Below are positions 38,556 to 53,029 of a stretch of DNA of 64,000 bases, in pieces (the first letter of the stretch is position 1; every line of letters starts with the position of its first letter). The position numbers and the translations under genes were made by a program. The notes below the pieces were generated by a model. It had not been told where the DNA came from. It saw only the letters and a list, made by a program, of their open reading frames with translations, and did no database searches. Location: contig NZ_LMOH01000001.1 in assembly GCF_001423245.1 (NCBI RefSeq), forward strand, positions 402,563-466,562, written 5' to 3'. This stretch comes from Aureimonas sp. Leaf324 (GTDB lineage: Bacteria; Pseudomonadota; Alphaproteobacteria; Rhizobiales; Rhizobiaceae).

Positions 38556-39746
38556 ATGCTGGATACTCCGCACCCCGAAGGGGCACCGAAGAAGGAAGGT
38601 CGCCCCGACGGCGCCTCGCCTTCGCTCGAGGCGGAGAAGGGCAAGGGCGGCGTGGTGCTGCATTTCGCCGGCGACTGGCTGGCCCGCACGATCGGGCACG
38701 TCGAGAGCGTCGTCGACGAGACGCGCAAGGCCGACCTCGGCAAGTCCGTTACCTTCGACCTCTCGGCGGTCGGTCGCCTCGACACATCGGGTGCGCTCCT
38801 GATGGAGCGGCTGCAGCGGGCCCTCGCCGAAAAAGGCGCGGAGGTTCGCTCCGAAGGACTTGGAGACGCCGAGACGAAGCTGTTCGGCGCCGTTCGCAAG
38901 GCCATGGATACGCCGCGCCCGGAGACCAAGGCCAAACAGACCTCGGCCGTCGCGGACTTCTTCGCGGCGATCGGCGCCAATGTCTTCGCCGTCGGCCGCG
39001 AGACGATGATGGGTCTCAACATCGTCGGCGCGTCGCTCTACGGCGCCGGTCGACGCATCACCGGCAAACAGAGCTGGCGGCCCGCCGCCATCGTCAGCCA
39101 GATGGACCGCATGGGCGTTCGCGCCGTGCCCATCATCGCGCTGATGAGCTTCCTGATCGGCGCCGTGATCGCGCAGCAGGGCGCCTTCCAGCTTCGCAAC
39201 TTCGGCGCCGAAATCTTCGTCGTCGACCTGGTCGGCATCCTGCAGCTGCGCGAGATCGGTGTGCTTCTGACCGCAATCATGATTGCCGGTCGCTCGGGCA
39301 GCGCCATCACCGCCGAGATCGGCTCGATGCGCATGCGCGAAGAGGTCGACGCGTTGCAGGTCATCGGCCTGAACCCGATCGGCGTCCTCGTTTTTCCGCG
39401 ACTCGTGGCGCTGACGATCGTCCTGCCGCTGCTCGCCTTCATCGCCGATATCGCCGGCCTCCTCGGCGCCATCGTCGTCACCTGGATCTATTCCGGCATC
39501 ACGCCCGATGCCTTCATCACGCGCATGCGCAGCGCGATCGACATCGGCACCGTCTTCGCCGGCCTGATCAAGGCGCCGTTCATGGCGATCGTGATCGGCG
39601 TCGTCGCTTCGCTCGAAGGTCTCAAGGTCGGCGGCAGCGCCGAAAGCCTCGGCCGTCACGTCACGGCTTCGGTCGTGAAATCCATCTTCCTGGTCATCCT
39701 CCTGGATGCCGTATTCGCGATATTCTATGCCGCCATCGGATACTGA
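38556..39746 (+). CDS. mlaE: MlaE-type ABC permease with N-terminal STAS domain
   Basis: This is the inner-membrane permease of an Mla/MCE lipid transporter that moves phospholipids between the outer and inner membranes. The 396-residue product carries an N-terminal STAS-like domain (about 30-130, VTFDLSAVGRLDTSGALLMERL), equivalent to MlaB fused in one chain, and the MlaE permease domain (about 150-396) with five or six helices and the conserved EIGSMRMREEVDALQVIGLNP-like cytoplasmic helix, shown here in part. The fused form is usual in Rhizobiales. Its end overlaps mlaF by 20 bp, so the genes are translationally coupled. Confidence 0.93.
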   Translation: MLDTPHPEGAPKKEGRPDGASPSLEAEKGKGGVVLHFAGDWLARTIGHVESVVDETRKADLGKSVTFDLSAVGRLDTSGALLMERLQRALAEKGAEVRSEGLGDAETKLFGAVRKAMDTPRPETKAKQTSAVADFFAAIGANVFAVGRETMMGLNIVGASLYGAGRRITGKQSWRPAAIVSQMDRMGVRAVPIIALMSFLIGAVIAQQGAFQLRNFGAEIFVVDLVGILQLREIGVLLTAIMIAGRSGSAITAEIGSMRMREEVDALQVIGLNPIGVLVFPRLVALTIVLPLLAFIADIAGLLGAIVVTWIYSGITPDAFITRMRSAIDIGTVFAGLIKAPFMAIVIGVVASLEGLKVGGSAESLGRHVTASVVKSIFLVILLDAVFAIFYAAIGY

Positions 39747-40557
39747 CACCACGCCTCGCAACCGGGACGACGACGTCATCATCCGCGCCAAGGATGTGAC
39801 GGTCCGCTTCGGATCGAAGACGATCCTCGACGGCCTGTCGCTCGACGTCCGCCGTGGCGAGATTCTGGGCTTCGTGGGCGCATCGGGCACCGGCAAGTCC
39901 GTGCTCCTGCGCACCATTCTCGGTCTCAACGCCAAGCAGTCGGGCACGATCGAGGTGTTCGGCGTCGACTACGAGCGCGCCGACGAAGCCGCGCGCCTGA
40001 GTGTCGAGCAGCGCTGGGGTGTTCTGTTCCAGCAGGGTGCCCTGTTCTCGTCGCTAACGGTGCTGGAGAATATCCAGGTCCCGATGCGCGAGTATCTCGA
40101 TATCTCGCCCAAGCTCATGGACGAGCTGGCACGGCTGAAGATCGATCTCGTCGGCCTCGCGGCCGATGCCGCCGACAAATATCCGTCCGAGCTTTCCGGC
40201 GGCATGATCAAGCGTGCGGCTCTGGCCCGCGCTCTCGCGCTCGACCCCGACATCGTCTTTCTCGACGAGCCGACGTCGGGCCTCGATCCGATCGGTGCCG
40301 CCGATTTCGACGAGCTCATCATGACCTTGCGCGACACGCTCGGGCTGACGGTCTACATGGTGACGCACGACCTCGACAGCCTGTTCCAGGCCTGCGATCG
40401 CATCGCGGTGCTCGGCAAGAAGAAGGTCCTCGTGGAAGGGCCGCTCCAGACCATGCTGGATTTCGACGACGACTGGGTGAAGTCGTACTTCCACGGAAAG
40501 CGGGCACGATACGTCGTGCCCAAGGACGAGAATCCGTACTTCAGCGGGAACGAGTGA
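39727..40557 (+). CDS. mlaF: Mla-type ABC transporter ATPase
   Basis: MlaF powers the lipid transporter by ATP hydrolysis. The 276-residue product has Walker A GASGTGKS (about 48-55), the Q-loop in VLFQQGALFSSLTV, the signature LSGGM, Walker B DIVFLDEP and the switch His in VTHDL. ATG 39727 (MPPSDTD) lies inside the end of mlaE. An in-frame ATG at 39706 is possible but would add only seven residues. It overlaps the next gene by 1 bp (TGATG). Confidence 0.93.
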   Translation: MPPSDTDTTPRNRDDDVIIRAKDVTVRFGSKTILDGLSLDVRRGEILGFVGASGTGKSVLLRTILGLNAKQSGTIEVFGVDYERADEAARLSVEQRWGVLFQQGALFSSLTVLENIQVPMREYLDISPKLMDELARLKIDLVGLAADAADKYPSELSGGMIKRAALARALALDPDIVFLDEPTSGLDPIGAADFDELIMTLRDTLGLTVYMVTHDLDSLFQACDRIAVLGKKKVLVEGPLQTMLDFDDDWVKSYFHGKRARYVVPKDENPYFSGNE

Positions 40558-42224
40558 TGGAAACCAGAGCCAACTACATCCTCGTCGGTGTGTTCACCGT
40601 CGCGGTGCTCCTGGCAAGCTTCGGCTTCGTCTACTGGTCCGCGAACGTCTCCGACCGGGATTCGCGCGTTCCGCTGCTTGTGCGCATCGAGGGCTCCGTG
40701 TCCGGTCTCAGCCAGGGCAGCCAGGTCCTGTTCAACGGCCTGGCCGTCGGTTCGGTCACGAACCTGCGCATCGATCCGAACAATCCGCGCGTCGTGATCG
40801 CAACCACGCAGATCGACCGCGAAACCCCGGTGACCACTTCGACCACCGCCACGATCGGCTTTCAGGGCCTGACCGGCATCGGGTTCATCGGCCTGACGGG
40901 CGGCAACGTCAACGACCGCAACATCATCCAGTCGGCGCTGGAGCAGGGGGCGACACCCGTCATCACGGCCAATCCGTCCGACGTCACCGACATTCTTGCC
41001 ACCGCCCGCGACATCGCCGACCGCGCCAACAGCATTCTCGGCCAATTCGAGGAGATCGTGCAGGCGATCGGCCCGGCGGTGCGCACGACGGCCGACAACG
41101 TGGCGCAGACCTCGACCAACGTCCGCACGTTCACCGACAGCCTCGCCGCCAACGCCGACCAGATCGACGACTTCCTCGCGAGCCTCGCCGACCTGTCGCG
41201 CAGCGCCAACAACGTCGCCGTTCAGCTCCCCGACCTCATGAACCGCGCGAGCACCTTCATCGGCGCTCTCGACGTCGCAGCCGTGAACCAGTCGATCCAG
41301 AACGTCGCGGCCATCTCGCAATCGCTGCGCGACCAGACCGGCAACGTCACGCGCGCGATCGAGTCCGTGTCCTCGGCTGTCGCCGGCTTCGGCTCCGTGG
41401 GCGACACGATCACCCAGAATCTGCCGAGCGTTCAGACCTTCCTGCAGCGGCTCGGCCCGATCTCCGAAACCGCCACGAGCGTAGCGACGCGCCTCGACTC
41501 CACGCTCGCCGACGTCTCCCAGATCACCGCCGCCGTGAACCCGGATCAGGTCCGCTCGACCATCAACAGCGTGTCCGGCTTCACCGACGCACTGAACGCA
41601 CAGTCCGGCCGCGTCGGCTCCGTCGTCGCCGGCGCCGACACGATGCTTCAGACGCTGAACGGCGCGCTGGAGGGCCTGAACGGAACACGTGCGCGGATCG
41701 ATACGCTCCTCTCGGCGGTCAGCGCATCGACCATCAACCAGGCCGTCAACGACGTCTCGTCCGCGACCAACAACATCGCGGCGGCGGCCGACTCCGTGCG
41801 CGGCGTTGCCGACAACATCAACTCGCGTCGCCAGGACATCAACGACATCATCACGAATGTCGAAGATACGAGCGCGTCGTTGAAGGTGGCGTCCACGCAG
41901 GTCCAGACGTTGATCAACTCGGTGAACGGCCTCGTCAACAGCCCGGACGGCAAGGGGCTGACGGCTGAGGCGCGCGCGACGCTTCAGAGCATCCGGACGA
42001 CGGCGGAGACGATCCAGCGGTCGGTCGGCCCGATCGCGGCGAACCTCCAGAACTTCACCGGCCAAGGGCTGCAGGACGCCCGAAACCTCATCCGCGAGAC
42101 GACGCAAGCCGTTTCGCGCATCGAGCGGGCGATCCTCGACCTCGCGAACAACCCGAGCCGCGTCATCTATGGTGGCGACGGCGCCGGCGAGGTTCGCCAG
42201 TTCGACGGTCGCGTCCGCCGCTAG
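40557..42224 (+). CDS. mlaD: MlaD-family MCE protein with long C-terminal helical tail
   Basis: MlaD binds lipids in the periplasm as a ring anchored to the permease. The 555-residue product has an N-terminal membrane anchor (about 6-25), a single MCE domain (about 35-115, with the typical ISGSVSGLSQGSQVLFNGLAVG pattern given here in part) and a very long, Asn/Ala/Ser/Thr-rich helical tail of about 420 residues with regular hydrophobic spacing. E. coli MlaD has only about 183 residues, so the tail could form a long tube or needle like those of PqiB/YebT-type proteins. ATG 40557 overlaps the mlaF stop. Confidence 0.9.
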   Translation: METRANYILVGVFTVAVLLASFGFVYWSANVSDRDSRVPLLVRIEGSVSGLSQGSQVLFNGLAVGSVTNLRIDPNNPRVVIATTQIDRETPVTTSTTATIGFQGLTGIGFIGLTGGNVNDRNIIQSALEQGATPVITANPSDVTDILATARDIADRANSILGQFEEIVQAIGPAVRTTADNVAQTSTNVRTFTDSLAANADQIDDFLASLADLSRSANNVAVQLPDLMNRASTFIGALDVAAVNQSIQNVAAISQSLRDQTGNVTRAIESVSSAVAGFGSVGDTITQNLPSVQTFLQRLGPISETATSVATRLDSTLADVSQITAAVNPDQVRSTINSVSGFTDALNAQSGRVGSVVAGADTMLQTLNGALEGLNGTRARIDTLLSAVSASTINQAVNDVSSATNNIAAAADSVRGVADNINSRRQDINDIITNVEDTSASLKVASTQVQTLINSVNGLVNSPDGKGLTAEARATLQSIRTTAETIQRSVGPIAANLQNFTGQGLQDARNLIRETTQAVSRIERAILDLANNPSRVIYGGDGAGEVRQFDGRVRR

Positions 42225-42361
42225 GAACAAGGTGCCGGCAGGCCGCGCGGCTTGTCGGCTAACATGCTGCGCGAGGCGTCCGACCGGTACGCATCGCCTC
42301 TTTCAAACCCGCGGGAAGCGAGCCAGCTTCGGCTTTCCGCCTGTACGCGTCGAGGATGAAC

Positions 42362-42958
42362 ATGGCACGATCCGCAACGGCAAGATGGTCCGGCCTCATG
42401 GTGGCAGCGGTCGCGCTTTCGGCCTGTGCGTCCCTGAAGACGCCGCCGGCGACCTTCGAGCTTTCGCCGCCGGGGCCGGCATCGGTCGGGTCGGCGTCGA
42501 CCCGCTCGCAGATCCTCCTGCCCGAACCCACCGCGACGCAGACGCTCGATAGCCAGCGCATCGTCGTCAAGCCGACGCCGCAGACCATCGAGAATCTGGC
42601 GGACAGTCAGTGGAGCGACAGGCTTCCGCGCCTCGTCCAGTTGCGTCTCCTCCAGGCTTTCCAGAACACGGGTCGCATCGGAGCGGCGGGTGTGCCGGGG
42701 CAGGGCCTTGCGATCGACTATCAGGTCGTGACCGAACTGCGCCGCTTCGAGATCGCCTTCGAACCCGGCGCCACGGCCGTGGTCGAAATTTCCGTCAAGG
42801 CGCTGAACGATCGCACGGGCGTCGTGCGCGGCACCCGCATCTTCCGGGCCAACGTGCCGGTCGCCAACGGCCAGCCTTCGGGCTACGTCACAGCGCTCGA
42901 TCAGGCGTTCGGACAGGTCGCGGATGAGATCGTCACCTGGATGATCCGCCTCGTCTGA
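42362..42958 (+). CDS. ABC-type transport auxiliary lipoprotein (PqiC-like)
   Basis: The product is a 198-residue lipoprotein: a signal peptide followed by the lipobox LSAC (Cys about residue 22). The rest resembles the ABC_trans_aux domain seen in PqiC and in MCE operons (TLDSQRIVVKPT, LPRLVQLRLLQAFQNTGR, VVEISVKALND). It probably sits in the outer membrane as the receiving partner of the MCE protein, replacing MlaA/MlaC in this operon. ATG 42362 follows GAGG. ATG 42356 is also possible. A strong terminator follows and closes the operon. Confidence 0.85.
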   Translation: MARSATARWSGLMVAAVALSACASLKTPPATFELSPPGPASVGSASTRSQILLPEPTATQTLDSQRIVVKPTPQTIENLADSQWSDRLPRLVQLRLLQAFQNTGRIGAAGVPGQGLAIDYQVVTELRRFEIAFEPGATAVVEISVKALNDRTGVVRGTRIFRANVPVANGQPSGYVTALDQAFGQVADEIVTWMIRLV

Positions 42959-43594: not shown

Positions 43595-46500
43595 TCAGTC
43601 GAAGCGTCCCGAAGCGTGCGCGAGCATCGTGTAGACCTTGCCCGTGTCCGACGTCAGGTACGACTTGCTGCGCGTGTTGTCGGGATCGCGCCGCGAAGCG
43701 TCCTGGAGCAGCGACTCGAAGTCCGCGATGTAGCGATCCACGGCATGCCGGAAGTCGGCGTCCCGCTGATACTTGCGGCGGATTTCGTCGAACGTCTGCT
43801 GACCCTTCATCGTGTAGAGACGACGGGTGAAGACGTTGCGCTCGCCGTTGCGATAGCGATCCCACAGCTCCACCGACACGTTGTGATCGATGGCGCGGGC
43901 GATATCGACCGAGAGCGAGTTCAGCGAGTCCACGACGTGAGCCTGGCTGCGCTCCGTGCGCGTGGCTTCGGGCGAAGCCGCCGATGCCGGAGACTCTACG
44001 GTCTCGGCGGCATCGTCCTCGTCCTGCGAGGCGCGACGCAGGAGGTCGGACACCCATCCGCCGTCACCGTCACTCGTCGTCTGGCGAGCAGCCGGGACCA
44101 CGGACGCCGCTGCGACCGGCGCCTGTGCGGGAGCCGCCGGTCGCAGCGGCGAGAACTCGCCGGTCCGGGCAGGCTGAACGGGCGTGACGGGGGCCTGCGG
44201 CGCCAGCATCCGCGACGCGTCGGCATGGCCACGCACGTCGTAGGCAAGGTTTCCGCCAACCGCGGGCGGGGCGGCCCGGCGTTCCAGCTCGGCACCGGAG
44301 GTGGCGCGGGTCCCGCGATCCTCGGTGGAGGGCTTGCGAACGTCGAGGGCGCGGCCGGATGTCGAGACGATGTCGCTCAGTTCGCGCAGGGCGCGGATCT
44401 GGTCGGAGACGGCCCGCCGCATGGCACGCGTGCTCTCACGGGTCTCTTCCGGCAGTTCGAACACACCGCGGCGGATTTCCGTCCGTGCCGTCTCCAACTC
44501 GCGGCGCATGTCCCCGGCAGCCCGGCGCATTTCAGTCGTCGCGCCCGCGAACTTCTCGGACGCCTCTTCGATCACCGAACGCATAGCCTCGCGGATCTGC
44601 TCGGCGGCCGCCTGCGAACGACGCTCGGTCTCCTCCAACTGCTGCTCGGCCTCGCCGAGGCTCGAGCCGAGCTCGCCGTTGACGGTCGCCGCCACGGCGC
44701 GAGCCCGCGCCTCGGCATCGGAGAACAGGCGATCCACGACACCCTCGAACGAGTTGAGGGTGGTCGAGATGTCGCGCGAGCGGTCCGCCAGCGTGCCGGC
44801 GAGAAGGGTGAGGCCCTCGTGCCGCTCTTCCAGCGTCGCCTGCAGGTTGGTCTGCGTCTCATCGAGAAGGCGCGCGGCATCGGACAGCAGGCGTCCGTGC
44901 TCGGCGAACTTCTCGGTCATGCCGCCGATCTGCATGAAGGCGGTCGATGTGACGCCGTCCATGCGGGCGATCGACTGTTCGAGGCGGTCCGACGACGAGG
45001 TGATCTCGTCCTCGACGCGTAGCGCCTCGGTGCGAAAGCGATCCCGCGTGTCGATGAGCGAAGTCTCCACACGACCGATCGAGCCGCTGGCATCCTCCAG
45101 CATCGTGCGCAACGTCTCGTTGCTGTTGTCCAGCCGGTCGAGAAGCTGAGTGATATCCTGACCGAGCTGACCCTGGATGCCCGACACGCGGGTTGCCGCT
45201 TCCTCGGACCGAAGGTCGAGGGCCGAGATCAGCTCCGACGACGAATGGCTGAGACGCTGGACGCGCTCCTCCGTACGCTGGATGAAGTCCGCCACGACGG
45301 CGGCATTCTCGGCGCGCAGACGCTTCGCGACCTGATCCGAAGTTCCTTCCAGCGCTTCGATCGCCGCGGTTCCGGTCTGCGACAAGGCGTCGACGATGGG
45401 CTGCGTCCGGGTCTCGATGAGGGTCGCGAGTTCCGCGTTCCGATCAGCCAGAAGCTGCGACAGCGCGCGCGTGCGCTCTGCCATCCGCTCCGCGACGCGA
45501 TCCGAGCTGTCCGACAGGTCGCGCTCGGAGGAGGCGACGCGATCGGCGATCTCGGCACCGAAGCCGGTGGTGACCTCGGCGATCTGGTCGCGAGCCCGTT
45601 CAGCTTCCAACCGCAGCGCGGTCGCGGCGGCCGAAAGGCCGAGCACGACCTGTGATCCTTCGGCGCTGAGCGCCGTGCGGGCCTGCTCGGCCTCGCGCAG
45701 GATCTCGCTGGAGACGTGAGCCGTCTCGTCGCGGATGTTGGCGGCGACCGCCAGGATGTCGCTGCGGATACTCTCCGACGTGCCATCGATCTCGGCGCGC
45801 AGGTCCATGATCGAACGCGACAGGCTCTCGTTGAGACCGCCGGACGTGTTGGACAGAAGCGTCGCGAGGCGATCGGACAGGGTCGCCAACTCTCCGACGA
45901 AGCCATCCGTCCGCTCGCCGAGCATCGTCACGCTGCGACCGGTTTCGTCGCGGATCAGCGTCGAAGCGCCGCGAACGCGCTCGGCGAAGCTCTCGGCATC
46001 CGACAGGAAGCGTTGGCGGGCGCTTTCGGCCTGCTCGGACATCGACGACGCGACGGCGTCGATCTCGCCGACCACGCGGGCAGCGTCGGCCGCGAACCGT
46101 TCGCGGACATCGCCGGAACTGGCTTCGAAGCGATCGGTCGCGCCGGTGAGTTCGGCAACGATCTGCCCGGCCGTCTCGCCGATCCGCTCGCGGACGCGGT
46201 CCGTCTCGCCGCGCATCGCCTCGACGACGCGTGCGACCTCGCCGGTGATGCGACCCGCATCGTCCAGAAGGTTGCGGCGCGACTGCTCGCCCGCTTCACG
46301 GAGATGACCGCTGGCATCGGTGAACTCGGCGCCGATGGCGGCGGTCTGTTCCGCAACCTCGCGACGGAGCGAGTCGGACTGCTCGCGCACCTGAAGGGCG
46401 GCCGCAGCGACCTCCTCGCGGATCTGCGCCGCGTCGGTCGCGAACTGCTCGCGCGTCCGGTCGCCGATGAGGCGAAGCCGGTCCGACGCATCGGTGATGT

Positions 46501-49500
46501 CGCCGGAGAGGGACTGCGCCTGGTCCTGAACGATCTGGCGAGCCGCTTCGGCGTCGTGACGCAGGCGATCCGCCATGGCTTCCAGGCCGCCGGCAAACTC
46601 GTTGGCGACTTCCGAGAGGCGCTCGCGCGCCGCTTCGGCCTCGCTGCGCATGGCGAGCGAAGCACCGCCGATCTGCGTGGTGAAGGCGTCGCCTTCGAGA
46701 GCCAGCGCCTCGCGAAGCTCCTCGGCGTCGGCGCGCATCCGCCCGGCGACGTCGGTGACCTGCCGGCCCAGCTGCTGGGCTTCGGTCGCGAAGCGCTCCT
46801 GCGCTTCCTGACCGATGCGGCGGATCGACTCCGCCGAAAGGACGATGCCCTCGGCGATCTGCGCGCTCTGACCCGTCAGTTCGTCCCGGGCCGTCCGGCT
46901 CGTCTCCTGAACAGACTGGACGACCGCCTTGATGCGCTCCTCGAAACGGCCGGCCTCGGCCACGAACTCGGCCTGGGCCTCGGCAGACGAGGACCGGAAC
47001 GTGGAACCGAGTTCGCCGATGATGATGGCGATCTTCTGGGTTTCGGTCTCGAGCCCGGACCGAGCGCGGTCGGCTTCCTCGCCCATCCTCGCGGAGGCCG
47101 CCACGATCGACTCGCGCAGCGTGTCGGCGATCAGCGCCGTGCGGCCGGAGAGCGTGCGCTCGACGTTGCCGAGACCGCGCTCGAGGCTGGCCGTGATGGC
47201 GTTGGTCCGCTCGTCAACAGCAGCCGCGAGGCTGACCGTTCCGGCGGCGAGCGCCGCGACGATTTCCTCGCGCTTGGTCTCCAAAGCCGTCGTGACGTTG
47301 CCGGCGCTCTGCTCCAGCACGCGGCGAACGTCGTCAGCGCGATCGCCCAGGGTCGCGGCCAGCGAGCCGGCGACGTCCTCGATCGCTGAGGTGAGATTGT
47401 CGCGACGCTCGTCCATGGCGGTCGCCAGCAGGCCGTCGGATTCGACCAGCGCCTGGCGCAGCGCGGTGATCCGGGTCTCGAGCGTCAAGAGAATCGTCGC
47501 GTTGCCGCCGTCGAGAGTGGCGGCGAGGCGGGTCGTGCGCTCGTCGAGATCGGAGATCAGCGAGCTTTCCGACGCATCGACCATCTGGCGCATCGACAGG
47601 ACGCGCTCGTCGAGGCCGTCGAGGATGGCGCCGCGCGCGTTCTCCACCGCATCGCGCAGCGACGTGCCGCGGCTGTCGAGGCCCTGGATCAGAAGCGAAA
47701 GCGCGTTCTCGACCGCAGACAAGACGGTGCCGGCGTTGTGGTCGATGTCACGGGCGAAGCGAGCGGTGCGCTCATCAAGGCTTGCGGTCAGACCCTGATG
47801 CGACGTGTCGACCGTGTCCGACAGTTCGCGGACGCGCACGGCAAGATCGTTGACCACACGTTCCACGGACTGTTCGAAGCTCGCCTCGATCCCGGCCGTA
47901 CGCGTCTCGAGGTTGGCGAGGAATTCCTGGCGACGATCGTCGCCCATCATCAGAGCCGCCTCGAGCCGCCCGATCACGTCGTCGCCGACGCGGGTTGTGT
48001 AGAGATCGAGCGAGGTGGACAAACGCTCGCCGCTGTCGCGCATGAACGCTTCGCTGGCGGCGATCCGGTCCGAAAGGCCTATCGTCAGCGTTTCGTTGCG
48101 CTCGTCTAAGTCGGCCACGAACCGCTCCGTTCGGCTGGCCAGCATGCGGTCGAGCGAAACCAGGCGGGTCTCGAACTCGTTCGACAGAACTTCCGTGCGC
48201 TGGTCGATCGCCACCTCGATGGCCGATCCGCGTTCGGCGAGAAGCGCGTTCATCCGGTCGAGGCGAGTCTGGAACCGATCGTCGGCCTGGGTATCGGCCG
48301 CTGCGAGCGCCGCCTCGAGCTTCTCGGCGCGCTCCGCGACGCCCGACACCATCCGGCCTTCCGCACCGTCGATGATCGCCTCCATGCGAGCGACATTGCT
48401 TTCGATCGACTGGGTGAGGGCGCTTCCGCGTTCCTCGAACTGCGAAAGTAGCGTCTGCTGGGCGAAGGCGAGCGACGTGTCGATGTCGGCGGCGCGATCG
48501 CTGAGAACGGCGCCGAGCGAACCGATCTGGGCGTCGAAGGTCGATCGGACGTGATCGGAATGGTTCGTGAAGCTGGCGTCGATCCCCTGGCGGGCACTCT
48601 CGGCGGCCGCAGTCAAACCGTCGCGACCGCTGTCGATGGCCTGACGGATTTCTTCGGCGCGCTCGGCGACGGTGCGTGCGAAACTGCCCGAGCTTTCGGA
48701 AAGGGTAATTGTCAGTCGCTCGGCCGTGCGATCGATGGCCTGCGCCTGCCCCTCGATCGTCTGGACCAACTGGGCGCCCTTGCCGGACAGCGCCGCTTCC
48801 AACTGAGCCAGCCGGTCGTCGAAGCGGCCGAGGACGTCGTCGTTGCGCGAGCCGAGGAGGGCGGCCGCGTTCTGGATGCGGCTGTCGAAGGCCTCGTCGA
48901 GACGGCCGAGAAGGCGCTCGGTCTCGGTGGCCAGATGCGAAAGGCGCTGATCGAGGCCCGCGGCGAGCGAAGCGATCAGGGCCTCGTTCTCACCGATCAT
49001 GCGCGCGGAGCGCTCGTCGAGCGTCTCGGTCAGGCGACGATCGAAGGTCTCCGAGCCGGTCGCGAGGTTCTCGGTTCGCTCGGCCAACTGGCGCAGGACC
49101 ACCTCGTTGGACTGGCGCAGGCGCTCGCCGGCATCCTCGCTGATCGAAGAGACGCGCTGGACCAGTTCGTCGGAACGCGCCTGCAGCTCTTCGGCCTGGG
49201 CGCGCAGCGAACGCGCGAGGTCTTCGCCGGTCTGAGCCAGACGCCGCGTGGTTTCCTCGGCCGTCTCGCCGATCCGCTGAATGACCGTTGCGCTGCTACC
49301 GGTGAGTTCGCTCTCGATCTCGCGGCTGCGCGCATCGAACATCGCCGTCAGCGCCTGGCTGCGATCCTCGTAGGCCTGCGAAAGAGCGGCACCGCGTTCG
49401 TCGAGCAAGGCATGGAAGCGCTGTGTCGCTTCCTCGACCTGCCGGATGATGCGGGTGGAGGCGGTGTCGACGTCGCCGATCAGTCGGTCGTGCGAGCCCA

Positions 49501-50623
49501 CCACGGAAGACCGCAGGTTCTCCGCGTGGCTCAGCATGGCCTCGCGCTCGGACGAGAGATCCGTCACGAGCGAGCGGATCTTGACCTCGTTGTCGGCGTA
49601 GGCCCGCTCGAGCGACGACACCTCGTTGTGCACGATGCCCTCGAGCTCGCCCATGCGCGAGAGGGCCCGCTCGACGCCTTCGCCGAGCGCCGCGACTTCG
49701 CGGCGGATCGCGTTGCCGACGCTGGCGACCTTCTCGGAGGCGATGTTCTCGGGTTCCGCTAGCCGCAGGGCGACTTCGGCGAGAGACCGGCTCATCAGGC
49801 GAAGGTCCTGAGAGCGGCGAACCATCACGGCGAACGCCATGATCAGGAGAGCCGGCAGGACCACGGCCGACGCGGCCAGCGCGAGCGTCAGTCCTTCGGG
49901 AACCGGCGAACTGCCGGAGCTGATGAAGGCGTAGGAGGCAGCGCCTGCCAGAAGCGCCCATGCCGCGGCGACGATGCCGCCAATCACGAGCGTTCGGCGG
50001 GAGGAACGACGGGTCAACAGCGCGTCGGCACGGACGGCTGCGGATCGCTGCTCATCGTTGGCGACGGCCGATTTGAAATCTCGGGTCCGAGAGGGGCGGA
50101 CGGGTTCCGGCGCTACGCTGGGCTCGGAACGCTTCACGGCCGGTTCCGAACGAGCGGCGCGGGGAGGCGGAGCGTCGTGGGCGGCGGTGCTGGCCGTTCC
50201 AGCCGCGATGGCGGCGGCTACCGGCGGCACGGCGCTGCCGAGGCGATCGGAGGCAGCGGGCGGATCGACGCGCTCGATCTCGCCGAGCGAGGCGATGAGT
50301 TCCTCTTCCGCGATCTGGAAGTCGGGCTCGGGCGGAACCTCGTTCTCGGCGGCAAGCGGCTCGGCCGACGCAGCAGGCTGAACGGCGCTTTCCTCTCGCA
50401 AGGCGCTGGTCGCCTCCTCCACGGAGCGGTCGAACTCGTTCAGGGCGAACTCAATGTTGATCTCGGACGCGGCGAGCGTGTCGTTCTCGACATGCCCCTC
50501 GGCCGTGCCGCTGACCTGCGGTTGCTCGGGGTCGGATCCCAAGAAATCCGTATCCTGAAGCGCCGCCTCCAGCTCGGTGACTGCTTCGTCCGATAGCTGT
50601 TCAGCCGTCTTGATCTTCGACAT
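43595..50623 (-). CDS. Giant membrane-anchored coiled-coil/apolipoprotein-like protein, probable growth pole ring protein (GPR/RgsE) homologue
   Basis: I read 2342 residues. The N-terminus is acidic and Pro/Ala-rich (1-200), followed by two membrane helices (about 211-235 and 244-268) and then about 1800 residues of helix with exact 11/22-residue periodicity. From Leu982 to Leu1158, eight units begin with [LVM]-x-x-[RK] every 22 residues (LDSR, LDER, LDER, LETR, MDER, LGDR, LETK, VDER). A Pro-rich linker (about 2060-2220) and a distinct C-terminal domain (about 2222-2342) complete the chain. Size, anchor and apolipoprotein-like repeats match GPR of Agrobacterium and RgsE of Sinorhizobium, which form a ring at the growing pole. 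This assignment rests on architecture, not on an alignment. The gene has its own terminator and long gaps on both sides. Confidence 0.85.
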   Translation of the reverse strand: MSKIKTAEQLSDEAVTELEAALQDTDFLGSDPEQPQVSGTAEGHVENDTLAASEINIEFALNEFDRSVEEATSALREESAVQPAASAEPLAAENEVPPEPDFQIAEEELIASLGEIERVDPPAASDRLGSAVPPVAAAIAAGTASTAAHDAPPPRAARSEPAVKRSEPSVAPEPVRPSRTRDFKSAVANDEQRSAAVRADALLTRRSSRRTLVIGGIVAAAWALLAGAASYAFISSGSSPVPEGLTLALAASAVVLPALLIMAFAVMVRRSQDLRLMSRSLAEVALRLAEPENIASEKVASVGNAIRREVAALGEGVERALSRMGELEGIVHNEVSSLERAYADNEVKIRSLVTDLSSEREAMLSHAENLRSSVVGSHDRLIGDVDTASTRIIRQVEEATQRFHALLDERGAALSQAYEDRSQALTAMFDARSREIESELTGSSATVIQRIGETAEETTRRLAQTGEDLARSLRAQAEELQARSDELVQRVSSISEDAGERLRQSNEVVLRQLAERTENLATGSETFDRRLTETLDERSARMIGENEALIASLAAGLDQRLSHLATETERLLGRLDEAFDSRIQNAAALLGSRNDDVLGRFDDRLAQLEAALSGKGAQLVQTIEGQAQAIDRTAERLTITLSESSGSFARTVAERAEEIRQAIDSGRDGLTAAAESARQGIDASFTNHSDHVRSTFDAQIGSLGAVLSDRAADIDTSLAFAQQTLLSQFEERGSALTQSIESNVARMEAIIDGAEGRMVSGVAERAEKLEAALAAADTQADDRFQTRLDRMNALLAERGSAIEVAIDQRTEVLSNEFETRLVSLDRMLASRTERFVADLDERNETLTIGLSDRIAASEAFMRDSGERLSTSLDLYTTRVGDDVIGRLEAALMMGDDRRQEFLANLETRTAGIEASFEQSVERVVNDLAVRVRELSDTVDTSHQGLTASLDERTARFARDIDHNAGTVLSAVENALSLLIQGLDSRGTSLRDAVENARGAILDGLDERVLSMRQMVDASESSLISDLDERTTRLAATLDGGNATILLTLETRITALRQALVESDGLLATAMDERRDNLTSAIEDVAGSLAATLGDRADDVRRVLEQSAGNVTTALETKREEIVAALAAGTVSLAAAVDERTNAITASLERGLGNVERTLSGRTALIADTLRESIVAASARMGEEADRARSGLETETQKIAIIIGELGSTFRSSSAEAQAEFVAEAGRFEERIKAVVQSVQETSRTARDELTGQSAQIAEGIVLSAESIRRIGQEAQERFATEAQQLGRQVTDVAGRMRADAEELREALALEGDAFTTQIGGASLAMRSEAEAARERLSEVANEFAGGLEAMADRLRHDAEAARQIVQDQAQSLSGDITDASDRLRLIGDRTREQFATDAAQIREEVAAAALQVREQSDSLRREVAEQTAAIGAEFTDASGHLREAGEQSRRNLLDDAGRITGEVARVVEAMRGETDRVRERIGETAGQIVAELTGATDRFEASSGDVRERFAADAARVVGEIDAVASSMSEQAESARQRFLSDAESFAERVRGASTLIRDETGRSVTMLGERTDGFVGELATLSDRLATLLSNTSGGLNESLSRSIMDLRAEIDGTSESIRSDILAVAANIRDETAHVSSEILREAEQARTALSAEGSQVVLGLSAAATALRLEAERARDQIAEVTTGFGAEIADRVASSERDLSDSSDRVAERMAERTRALSQLLADRNAELATLIETRTQPIVDALSQTGTAAIEALEGTSDQVAKRLRAENAAVVADFIQRTEERVQRLSHSSSELISALDLRSEEAATRVSGIQGQLGQDITQLLDRLDNSNETLRTMLEDASGSIGRVETSLIDTRDRFRTEALRVEDEITSSSDRLEQSIARMDGVTSTAFMQIGGMTEKFAEHGRLLSDAARLLDETQTNLQATLEERHEGLTLLAGTLADRSRDISTTLNSFEGVVDRLFSDAEARARAVAATVNGELGSSLGEAEQQLEETERRSQAAAEQIREAMRSVIEEASEKFAGATTEMRRAAGDMRRELETARTEIRRGVFELPEETRESTRAMRRAVSDQIRALRELSDIVSTSGRALDVRKPSTEDRGTRATSGAELERRAAPPAVGGNLAYDVRGHADASRMLAPQAPVTPVQPARTGEFSPLRPAAPAQAPVAAASVVPAARQTTSDGDGGWVSDLLRRASQDEDDAAETVESPASAASPEATRTERSQAHVVDSLNSLSVDIARAIDHNVSVELWDRYRNGERNVFTRRLYTMKGQQTFDEIRRKYQRDADFRHAVDRYIADFESLLQDASRRDPDNTRSKSYLTSDTGKVYTMLAHASGRFD

Positions 50624-51117
50624 GACCCGCCGCCCCGTACTCGTTTACTCGCAGGATGATCGGTGGCCCGCCGCCCTGTCGCGCGCCAACAAACATCCGG
50701 CCATTAACGGCTCACCCTCGAATACACGGAGGGCGGGCCTTTTACATGCCATCAAATTAGAGGCCCGCGCGGCGGAAGGAAACCCGCAATTCCGGGCTTT
50801 GATACAAGTTTAAACATTTGGTTAACGCCGATTTGGAAATGCCGGTTTCGCCGATAGCCTTCTCTTGACTACCATCGGAGGAACGGACGCCGGGTCCGCC
50901 TTCCACATGACGTCGCGTCGTCCTGCGTTTGCGGGGGCGAATCGAAACGAACGCTCCGCTGGGGCCAACGTCGCGTCGACCGCCTCTGTCGCATTCGATC
51001 GATCTTGGCCGGCGAGGCGGCAGTCCCAAGCGCTTGTTGATAACCATCGGACGTCGCTGCGGATCGACGGGATACGAGACGGTTGACCCGGAACCGGCGT
51101 CGTTCTACCGGCGGAGC
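50624..51117. other. Gene-free stretch of about 494 bp between two divergent starts
   Basis: The region separates the giant gene (minus) from the ferredoxin gene (plus) and should hold both promoters. The part from 50740 to 50830 is clearly richer in A and T than the surroundings. Two TTAA half-sites (50810-50813 and 50822-50825, the second followed by C) are 8 bp apart, close to but not the same as the CtrA pattern with 7 bp. Plus-strand frames here are open into the ferredoxin gene but look non-coding. Confidence 0.45.
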
Positions 51118-51438
51118 ATGACCGCGATCAGCTTCATCACCTCCGACGGGACCCGCTACGACCTTGACGCCCCCGACGGAGGGAGCGTGATGCAGGCTGC
51201 GATCCGCAACGACGTCCCCGGCATCGATGCCGACTGCGGCGGCGCATGCGCCTGCGCGACCTGTCATGTTTATGTCGACGAGGCCCGGCTTGCCGAACTC
51301 CCGCCAATGGAGGCGATGGAGGAGGACATGCTGGATTTCGCGCTCGATGTTCGGCCGAATTCGCGACTGTCCTGTCAGATCCGCGTCAGACCCGAACTGG
51401 CGGGACTGACGTTGACGGTTCCTGCCCGACAGGCTTGA
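51118..51438 (+). CDS. [2Fe-2S] ferredoxin, adrenodoxin type
   Basis: This is a small cytoplasmic electron carrier of 106 residues. The four cluster ligands are arranged as in adrenodoxin-type ferredoxins: Cys residues in DCGGACACATCHVYV (spaced C-x5-C-x2-C) and a fourth Cys in LSCQI. Relatives serve cytochrome P450 systems, iron-sulfur cluster assembly or haem A synthesis. The partner is not encoded in the window. ATG 51118 gives the usual length. The upstream open frame (to 50929) is not family-like. The GGAG just before the ATG is closer than ideal. Confidence 0.9.
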   Translation: MTAISFITSDGTRYDLDAPDGGSVMQAAIRNDVPGIDADCGGACACATCHVYVDEARLAELPPMEAMEEDMLDFALDVRPNSRLSCQIRVRPELAGLTLTVPARQA

Positions 51439-51455: not shown

Positions 51456-52052
51456 CTAGCGCACGGATTTGATGGCCGCGCTCAGCTTGGCGTTCAACCG
51501 GGAATCGACGACACGCGTCTCCGCTCGGTCGAAGCCGTTCTGCTCTTTCGCGTGGGCGAGCTGCATTTCCTGCGAGCGTCGCCCGGCTGTCATTTCCATG
51601 CGGGCGCATGTGGCTTCGGCGGGAAGCGCCAGAAGCTCGCGGTTCATCCGGTCGAGCCAAGTCTTGGCGATGGCCGTGTGCTTCGCCTCGTGATCGGCGA
51701 TGTCGCGCTGCAGCACCTTCCACATCGTTCGCGTATGGGCGTCCACCCCTCGCGGCGCGTTCCAGCGCGGCAGCGTCGTGACGAGGTCGAGACGAAGGTT
51801 CGTGCGCGAAACACGGCAGCCCGTCTTGTCGGTCTTGAACTCGAGGTCGCGGCTGAAGGTCACCTTGGTCGATCCCGCGTGCCGCTCGCCGCCTCCCAGA
51901 AGCGGGCCGTTCGACCCCAGCGCCTTGTCGAGTTCGGCAAAGGTCGCACCGCGCACCATGAAATAGGTGGTTCGCTCGGTGATCTCGGCCGCGTGGGCCA
52001 AGCCGGTGGACATGCATCCAGCCGCGAGGCTGCAGATCAGAAGTCGCCGCAT
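51456..52052 (-). CDS. DUF922 family secreted protein, possible zinc protease
   Basis: The 198-residue product has a signal peptide (cleavage about AHAA, residue 22) and the DUF922 domain, with the possible metal motif HEAKH (in IADHEAKHTAIAKTW) after the segment THTRTMWKVLQRD. DUF922 members are annotated as predicted secreted zinc-dependent proteases without firm biochemical proof. Two Cys residues (about 87 and 149) could form a disulfide. It is convergent with the ferredoxin gene and divergent from folP. ATG 52052 gives the best signal peptide. Confidence 0.78.
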   Translation of the reverse strand: MRRLLICSLAAGCMSTGLAHAAEITERTTYFMVRGATFAELDKALGSNGPLLGGGERHAGSTKVTFSRDLEFKTDKTGCRVSRTNLRLDLVTTLPRWNAPRGVDAHTRTMWKVLQRDIADHEAKHTAIAKTWLDRMNRELLALPAEATCARMEMTAGRRSQEMQLAHAKEQNGFDRAETRVVDSRLNAKLSAAIKSVR

Positions 52053-52168
52053 CGTCGCTGGCCTCGACCCTTGAAACACCTGACCCCTACGCTACGCAGG
52101 TTCCCAAGAGATACAAGATACGATTGCGGAAATATTGCGGTCGTCAGTAACGGGCGGGGGAACTACGG

Positions 52169-53029
52169 ATGATGTCGCCCACGGCCGTGACAACCGACCG
52201 CATGTGGCGCCTTGCGCACAGTCGTACGCTGCAACTCGGCACCAAATCGACGATCATGGGCATCCTGAACGTCACGCCGGACAGTTTTTCCGACGGCGGA
52301 CGCTTCGATGGAAAAGTCGAACGGGCGGTCGAGGCTGCCTTGGCGATGGTGGCGGATGGCGCCGGGATCATCGACGTGGGCGGCGAATCCACGCGGCCGG
52401 GCGCCGAGCCTGTCGGGCCAGCGGAGGAGCAACGACGGGTCCTGCCGGTGATCGCGGCGCTGCGCGCCCGCTCCGACGTCGCCATCTCGATCGACACCTA
52501 TCGCGCCGAGACGGCGTCGCTGGCTGTCGAGGCCGGTGCGTCGATCGTCAACGACGTGTGGGGTGCCCAGCGCGAGCCTGATATCGCACGCGTGGCCGCG
52601 CGAAGTGGCGCGGGGCTCTGCCTGATGCATACGGGCCGCGAGCGGCGGAAGCTGCCGGATGTGATCGAGGATCAGATCGCCTTCCTCACCCGTTCGATCG
52701 CAATCGCGCGGGCGGCAGGCGTCGCCGACGAGCAGATCGTCGTCGATCCCGGTTTCGGGTTCGCGAAGGATGCGGGCGAGAATCTCGAGCTGATGGTGCG
52801 CCTTCAGGAACTCGCATCGCTCGGACTCCCGATCCTGGTCGGTACGTCGCGCAAGCGCTTCGTTCGCGGCGTCCTCGATCGCGATGCCGGCGACATCGAC
52901 GTGGCGACCGCCGCGACGAGCGTGCTCCTGCGCGAGCGCGGCGCTTCGATCTTCCGGGTGCACGCGGTCGCACCGACACGCGACGCGCTCGCGGTCGTGG
53001 ACGCGGCGCTGGCGAGGGGGACGCGATGA
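52169..53029 (+). CDS. folP: Dihydropteroate synthase
   Basis: FolP joins p-aminobenzoate to the pterin diphosphate in folate synthesis and is the target of sulfonamides. The 286-residue TIM-barrel protein has the signatures GILNVTPDSFSDGG (about 31-44), DVGGESTRPGA (about 70-80) and GTSRKRF (about 228-234). ATG 52169 or the adjacent ATG 52172 can start it. folK follows with an ATGA overlap. folB, commonly between them, is absent. Confidence 0.95.
   Translation: MMSPTAVTTDRMWRLAHSRTLQLGTKSTIMGILNVTPDSFSDGGRFDGKVERAVEAALAMVADGAGIIDVGGESTRPGAEPVGPAEEQRRVLPVIAALRARSDVAISIDTYRAETASLAVEAGASIVNDVWGAQREPDIARVAARSGAGLCLMHTGRERRKLPDVIEDQIAFLTRSIAIARAAGVADEQIVVDPGFGFAKDAGENLELMVRLQELASLGLPILVGTSRKRFVRGVLDRDAGDIDVATAATSVLLRERGASIFRVHAVAPTRDALAVVDAALARGTR

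Follow-up and report, generated by a model that had tools for sequence, protein, structure and literature searches.

A register-keeping helical rod of 11- and 29-residue repeats in the GPR/RgsE orthologue of an Aureimonas genome

The stretch of Aureimonas sp. Leaf324 DNA analysed here (64,000 nucleotides of contig NZ_LMOH01000001.1, assembly GCF_001423245.1; hereafter the window) contains one very long open reading frame whose protein consists largely of short repeats. What family does this protein belong to, and what does its repeated helix do? The original prediction, made from the sequence, was a homologue of the growth pole ring protein of Rhizobiales (GPR, or RgsE), built of exact 22-residue repeats that form an apolipoprotein-type 11-mer helix. 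We find that the family assignment stands, that the repeat description needs extending, and that the helix is probably of another kind.

BLASTP against RgsE of Sinorhizobium meliloti aligned the membrane part and rod (E = 8e-73, 25% identity over 1146 columns) and the C terminus (E = 6e-63, 61% over 185 columns), the latter being the region on which the prediction had been made to depend. The S. meliloti sequence was obtained by tblastn of a plasmid collection (record L237, CP090106.1) and has 2089 amino acids, the length printed in the available part of PMC7327166. That 3.7-Mb record is titled plasmid pSymB and has rgsE, folP and cytochrome genes; it is probably a mislabelled chromosome. Beside S. 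meliloti rgsE lie folP, a DUF922 protease gene, a 2Fe-2S protein gene and an Hpt gene, and the window keeps the order PF00809, PF06037, PF00111, gpr, with the Hpt gene missing. Because the two proteins have in common two membrane helices, a C terminus with 61% identity and neighbouring genes, the sequence identifies the frame at 43595-50623 as the orthologue of RgsE and a member of the GPR/RgsE family. A search for MreB (PF06723, E 1e-20) matched 354 of 385 genomes of the class, but neither that of the window nor the four others sampled from its order. Within its own genome, the protein matched only itself.

The predicted anatomy (Table 1) begins with two N-terminal transmembrane helices, seen as hydropathy peaks at residues 210-235 and 241-271. 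The rod that follows has prolines only at residues 291 and 1742 and no tryptophan. On the other side of the gene, at window positions 39706-42958, consecutive genes for an ABC ATPase (PF00005), an MlaD protein with a long helical tail (PF02470) and an ABC auxiliary lipoprotein (PF03886) form an Mla-type lipid-transport set that is convergent with gpr. Directly downstream of gpr in one genome of the same genus lies an incomplete copy of the GPR domain, comprising its final 21 residues (G008:C23:230414-230476).

Table 1. Features of gpr and its neighbours, in window coordinates
Feature	Position	Strand	Basis or remark
gpr/rgsE orthologue, 2342 aa	43595..50623	-	open frame; BLASTP to RgsE
two transmembrane helices, residues about 210-271	49811..49996	-	hydropathy, 19-residue mean >1.6
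helical rod, residues 272-2057, 1786 aa	44453..49810	-	2 prolines; period 3.66
main 11/22-residue tract, residues about 590-1180	47084..48856	-	autocorrelation, local spectra; 11/3 = 3.667 residues/turn
nine successive exact 22-residue units starting [LVM]xx[RK], residues 982-1179	47087..47680	-	
29-residue tract, residues about 1210-1600	45824..46996	-	lags 29, 58, 87, 116 lead; 29/8 = 3.625 residues/turn
six successive 29-residue units (REQF, RREV, RRNL, RERI, RERF, RQRF), residues 1391-1564	45932..46453	-	
proline-rich linker, residues 2058-2224	43952..44452	-	
conserved C-terminal domain, residues 2225-2342 (118 aa), predicted all-helical	43598..43951	-	
2Fe-2S ferredoxin-type gene (PF00111)	50929..51438	+	synteny with S. 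meliloti
DUF922 gene (PF06037)	51456..52079	-	synteny with S. meliloti
pterin-binding enzyme gene (PF00809, folP-like)	52169..53029	+	synteny with S. meliloti

The repeats are real and extend beyond the prediction. All eight units that it had counted are exactly 22 residues apart (LDSR982, LDER1004, LDER1026, LETR1048, MDER1070, LGDR1092, LETK1114 and VDER1136), and a ninth, LSGR1158, follows them. Also as described, LETR905, LAVR927 and LDER949 stand at steps of 22 and 22 before the main run, a 33-residue step leads from LDER949 to LDSR982, and LDER535, LDQR557, FDSR579 and FDDR601, nearer the N terminus, are spaced by 22 each. This chain of nine [LVM]xx[RK] motifs is the longest at spacing 22, against a maximum of three in 2000 shuffles of the rod; 14 other spacings of the motif in the real protein gave chains of at most five (spacing 44). 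Spectral analysis, which had been proposed as a check, found a period of 3.66 for LIVMF at positions 276-2060, with a power of 15.4 (maximum of 30 shuffles, 2.1). TRF detected no DNA-level tandem array, and the units have therefore diverged.

To call the whole protein ‘built of exact 22-residue repeats’ is nevertheless an overstatement. Self-comparison shows multiples of 11 leading at residues about 590-1170, where the local period is 3.663-3.666, with smaller 11/22 patches near residues 480-520, 1660-1720 and 1790-1800, but at residues about 1210-1590 the leading lags are 29, 58, 87 and 116 and the local period is 3.62-3.63 (3.623-3.628). This second tract, of 29-residue repeats, was missed in the original prediction and is new here. 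Across residues 701-1170, two of the 11 register positions are 98% and 93% LIVMF and the next are 28% and 26%, and one flank of this hydrophobic stripe is rich in arginine.

How repeat number varies between strains had been posed as an open question, and comparison of related proteins answers it in part: the rod varies strongly in length, mostly by whole units. A first set comprised 100 full proteins including that of the window (61, then 39 more; G198, which is cut, was dropped), and a second comprised 75 of 80 loci, chiefly from Mesorhizobium and Aminobacter (five were dropped because the upstream stop is absent), of which 73 were used for rod lengths (L203 and L209, in which no membrane helix is visible, were left out). 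Rods range from 317 to 2455 residues in the first set and from 1022 to 2485 in the second, and have at most two prolines in 80 of the 100 (maximum 11) and in all 73, respectively. In the window's genus (n = 21), lengths cluster at 1616-1617 (five proteins), 1785-1786 (seven) and 1796-1799 (four), the other five lying within 1672-1915.

We counted indels between blocks of 24 ungapped columns with at least 60% identity on both sides. For the first set, pairs were taken within 14 groups, 13 of them by genus (one of these also takes in G086, from a neighbouring genus) and the last one mixed, giving 1509 pair events, with 175 that span regions set aside. Of the 104 distinct group-and-length values from the rod, 74 equal 0, 7 or 3 mod 11 (that is, 11n, 11n+7 or 11n+14), compared with 24 of 93 in the N-terminal region and 26 of 99 in the linker. 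Lengths also follow the local repeat: among 53 values from 11-residue tracts, 35 are multiples of 11 and two of 29; among 38 from 29-residue tracts, none is a multiple of 11 and 21 are multiples of 29; and mixed tracts (23 values) gave nine and three. The 17 values from 29-residue tracts that are not multiples of 29 mostly keep phase even so, 14 of them lying within an eighth-turn of whole turns at 3.625 residues per turn (p = 1e-6), whereas the same lengths at three other periods tried gave 7 to 11 in phase.

The second set (72 proteins, L218 being left out as well for its Ns; 2556 pairs, 18425 events, 152 set aside) follows the same rule between close relatives. At identity of at least 0.9 there are 25 distinct rod indel lengths, and the nine below 60 (7, 11, 18, 22, 29, 36, 40, 51 and 58) can each be written as 7a+11b. 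Of the numbers 1-59, 30 cannot, and every number above 59 can. In the two flanks, 4 of 17 and 1 of 8 lengths have this form. Phase concentration at 3.625 is 0.89 for the rod and 0.07 and 0.10 for the flanks (17 and 8 lengths); 18 of the 25 rod lengths lie within an eighth-turn, and 12 equal 0, 7 or 3 mod 11. Events shorter than seven residues make up 0 of 610 in the rod, 419 of 489 (86%) in the N-terminal region and 576 of 584 (99%) in the linker, counts in which pair events are not independent (the 610 rod events stem from 323 pairs); at identity of at least 0.8 the corresponding figures are 0 of 3014, 1633 of 2212 and 2671 of 2930.

Some counts run against the rule. When pairs of any identity are admitted, 349 of the 9531 rod events in the second set are shorter than seven residues, and just 60 of 215 distinct rod lengths equal 0, 7 or 3 mod 11. 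Tract specificity is not absolute: 2880 events in second-set 29-residue tracts (identity at least 0.8) include 448 multiples of 11 and 1151 of 29, and the 71 events labelled as 11-residue tract are all of four residues, in pairs at 0.52-0.59 identity. A count with strict flanks was too sparse to use (two rod inserts). To judge from the aligned sequences, in-register change of rod length between close relatives is a new property of this family.

Relatives outside the order broaden this picture. The C-terminal domain occurs in every one of 61 genomes that were sampled from the order and include that of the window, in 294 of 297 genomes of its GTDB family, to which Mesorhizobium and Aminobacter also belong (G100, G132 and G282 gave no match, through loss or assembly gaps) and, by profile search, in 147 of 385 genomes of the class; the available text of PMC7327166 places RgsE homologues in all families of Rhizobiales and distant ones in two other orders. 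Outside the order 142 genomes match, and from these we examined 20, most of them with high scores. Their proteins have two membrane segments in 11 cases, one in eight and none in one, and the period of the rod is 3.554-3.598 in 18 and 3.622-3.626 in two. Rods near 3.57 residues per turn in such relatives are a new observation, and they fall to the left-handed side of 3.63 (PMC4786415). Lags of 25, 50, 75 and 100 are among the leaders in 6 of the 10 examined for lags. Mesorhizobium-type rods of the second set have a median period of 3.6245 (range 3.598-3.644; 73 proteins), and first-sample rods from the order have periods of 3.64-3.69 in 52 of 61, the rest lying at 3.57-3.64. Because 25 (7+7+11), 29 (7+11+11) and 11 form one series, we take the pitch to have shifted inside one family. 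A plasmid record of Sphingomonas parapaucimobilis (L238, 7018-9342) has a 774-residue protein with the GPR C-terminal domain. The idea that GPR replaces MreB is unsupported, since four relatives of 1977-2416 residues outside the order occur in genomes with MreB (G617, G599, G442 and G464).

The C-terminal domain itself resembles nothing that we could name. An AlphaFold model made with an alignment of 35 close sequences has seven helices (mean pLDDT 78.5); a fold search with this model against the PDB returned nothing under E = 0.6, its profile matched no PDB sequence under E = 0.14, and no Pfam family gave a useful match.

We consider that the rod is probably a register-locked, membrane-anchored coiled coil within a polar scaffold. 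The two membrane helices would anchor GPR, followed by the nearly proline-free rod, the proline-rich linker and the helical C-terminal domain. The rod may form a hendecad-based coiled coil in which helix packs on helix, whether with itself or with further copies, and this packing could space or multimerise a scaffold that collects the growth machinery at the cell pole, a role suggested by published work on GPR and RgsE. Changes in its length would come mainly from whole units being duplicated in tandem or lost, with register-breaking changes presumably removed by selection. The narrow stripe, the register rule and relatives with rods near 25/7 together favour helix packing. Hendecad cores are described in the accessible text of PMC9858780 as having 11/3 periodicity with hydrophobic a, d and h, one position often being small; at residues 701-1170 the rod has two strong core positions and a weak third, where LIVMF make up 26% and T, A or G are frequent (19 of 42). 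Predicted by AlphaFold from a single sequence, 438 residues of the rod are helical at low confidence (pLDDT 66) and break into five helices.

A straight helix rises 0.15 nm per residue. The 1786-residue rod would measure about 270 nm if it were one straight helix, and 1700 residues would measure about 255 nm rather than the 600 nm that the available text of PMC8262873 gives for the extended 1700-residue helical domain, which changes the packing argument. This 2021 paper asks whether GPR interacts with lipids and whether protein contacts are made through its helices. It also reports that deleting apolipoprotein-like parts harms GPR, a result that fits both a coiled coil and a lipid-binding helix.

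The second of these, a true apolipoprotein-type amphipathic helix that is folded back and, at the growing pole, sorts lipid or rests on it, is the nearest competitor, although we think it unlikely. Such a helix was part of the original prediction and had already been put forward for GPR in PMC8262873, as its accessible part states. The profile matches behind it are genuine: PF01442 scores 171 bits on the whole protein against a cut-off of 90 (E = 2.5e-50), ApoLp-III scores 39.6 bits against 36.3, and at E = 1e-3 the rod matches no PDB sequences other than those of apoA-IV (4e-6). However, 7 of 14 control genomes, including those of Bacillus subtilis and Thermotoga, also gave PF01442 matches under the cut-off; in that search no single match of any genome passed it. 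A 216-residue piece of the rod matches apoA-IV at E = 5.8e-9 (39.4 bits). In three shuffles that keep only the composition of each register position, apoA-IV remained the top match (E = 2.3e-5, 0.0073 and 0.025; best matches of 17.8-27.8 bits), whereas a full shuffle of the piece gave no apoA-IV match even at E = 10. Periodicity thus makes up most, but not all, of the likeness, since the real piece exceeds its shuffled versions. Apolipoprotein 22-mers are punctuated by proline, and 2 prolines in 1786 residues do not follow that pattern; the narrow stripe and the near-25/7 rods of class relatives also speak against a lipid-bound helix. Away from gpr, the window's genome has a further match to the apolipoprotein profile, in a 681-residue open frame (G000:C12:619512-619886).

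The whole-unit indels could instead reflect a mutation process only, recombination between repeats, and be silent on helix packing. Inserts do look mostly like tandem copies of neighbouring units when the sequences are compared: of those up to 150 residues long, 136 of 167 in the second set (identity at least 0.9) and 36 of 46 in the first (identity at least 0.8) are at least 50% like their neighbour, and the best reach 94-100%, whereas random places in the rods yield medians of 18-27%, with 95th percentiles at 41-66%. Recombination of this kind would not by itself account for the rarity of short indels, which dominate both flanks and are absent from the rod at identity of at least 0.9, nor for the in-phase lengths in 29-residue tracts that are not multiples of 29. 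We therefore regard mutation as the sole explanation as improbable. Least credible is that the protein is a structural coiled coil of a generic kind found in the class, without a tie to polar growth in this species: the spread of the C-terminal domain through the class and the four long relatives in genomes with MreB are compatible with it, but the domain is in every genome sampled from the order, and GPR and RgsE mutants have polar-growth defects (PMC8262873 and PMC7327166, in their available parts).

The gene neighbourhood adds a second theme. A divergent Hpt gene lies upstream of gpr in 46 of 60 first-set loci (one of the misses has only 388 bases upstream) and beside gpr in 158 of 181 loci scanned, of which two were seeds and 79 are Mesorhizobium-type close relatives, several of the misses being cut loci. 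Of 20 loci outside the order, taken with about 1.5 kb of upstream sequence, eight have it. The S. meliloti protein passes the Hpt cut-off of Pfam, and the phosphorylatable histidine is retained in 150 of 159 copies. In the Sphingomonas record, an adjoining divergent gene is annotated as Hpt; its histidine is replaced and it matches no Pfam family. In the window, no Hpt gene is present upstream of gpr (50624-50928), and a genome-wide search recognised no copy in the window's genome or in eight others of its genus, while recovering both positives (one of them the query's own genome). Among the copies remaining in the genus, 5 of 12 lack the histidine, and five members of another genus (g17) also have no Hpt gene beside gpr. 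The divergent Hpt neighbour, and its absence in the window, is a new observation; we found no literature that joins an Hpt gene with gpr, and the accessible text of PMC9022086 mentions both and does not place an Hpt gene beside gpr.

Taken together, these observations allow a broader, tentative reading, which we hold to be possible rather than likely: GPR would be a class-wide alphaproteobacterial family with a rod written in words of 7 and 11, the length and pitch of which are tuned, and with a tie to an Hpt phosphorelay that was lost in the window's clade. According to theory given in the available parts of PMC4786415 and PMC9858780, 3.63 residues per turn is straight, lower values being left-handed and higher ones right-handed. 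Exact 25-residue repeats outside the order (25/7) would then fall on the left-handed side, and within the order those of 29 (29/8) would be nearly straight and those of 11/22 (11/3) slightly right-handed; rod length and pitch would perhaps set the size or spacing of the polar scaffold. One candidate partner for the Hpt protein is the orphan hybrid kinase RdsA of Rhizobium etli, near which no Hpt was found (PMC9022086, in the part available). Through the in-register rule and the 25/29/11 series, the coiled-coil reading can be tested directly and natural variants of length and pitch are available for comparison, and the conserved Hpt neighbour and the C-terminal domain without a Pfam family are new handles on polar growth.

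Several known systems invite comparison. The ZorA family (NF033914) gives a weak match (E = 0.0012) to profile positions 325-616, which we take to be its tail, far under the cut-off (17 of 190 bits). Apolipoproteins A-I, A-IV and E (PF01442) are like the rod in their 11/22-residue amphipathic periodicity, with the profile over its cut-off, but the rod differs in having hardly any proline, a narrow stripe, a far greater length and a membrane anchor, and homology is not established. Caulobacter TipN, with 882 residues, is called analogous to GPR in the available text of PMC13170164, a likeness by description only. The Streptomyces proteins Scy and FilP, as presented in the accessible part of PMC9858780, are hendecad coiled coils tied to cell poles and division, with lengths that vary among members; they have a DivIVA-like N terminus, whereas the window's protein has a membrane anchor and another C-terminal domain, and the parallel is one of analogy only. 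Our search, outside which most subscription papers lay, found no literature joining hendecads with the growth pole ring. Closest are RgsE (SMc00190) and Agrobacterium GPR (Atu1348), the latter compared through the literature alone. The window's protein is longer than either (2342 residues versus 2089 and 2115), has just 25% identity to RgsE in the rod and lacks the adjacent Hpt gene, but it is like both in its two N-terminal membrane helices and a helical rod of about 1700 residues, and like RgsE in its gene neighbourhood and in a C-terminal region that is 61% identical over 185 columns.
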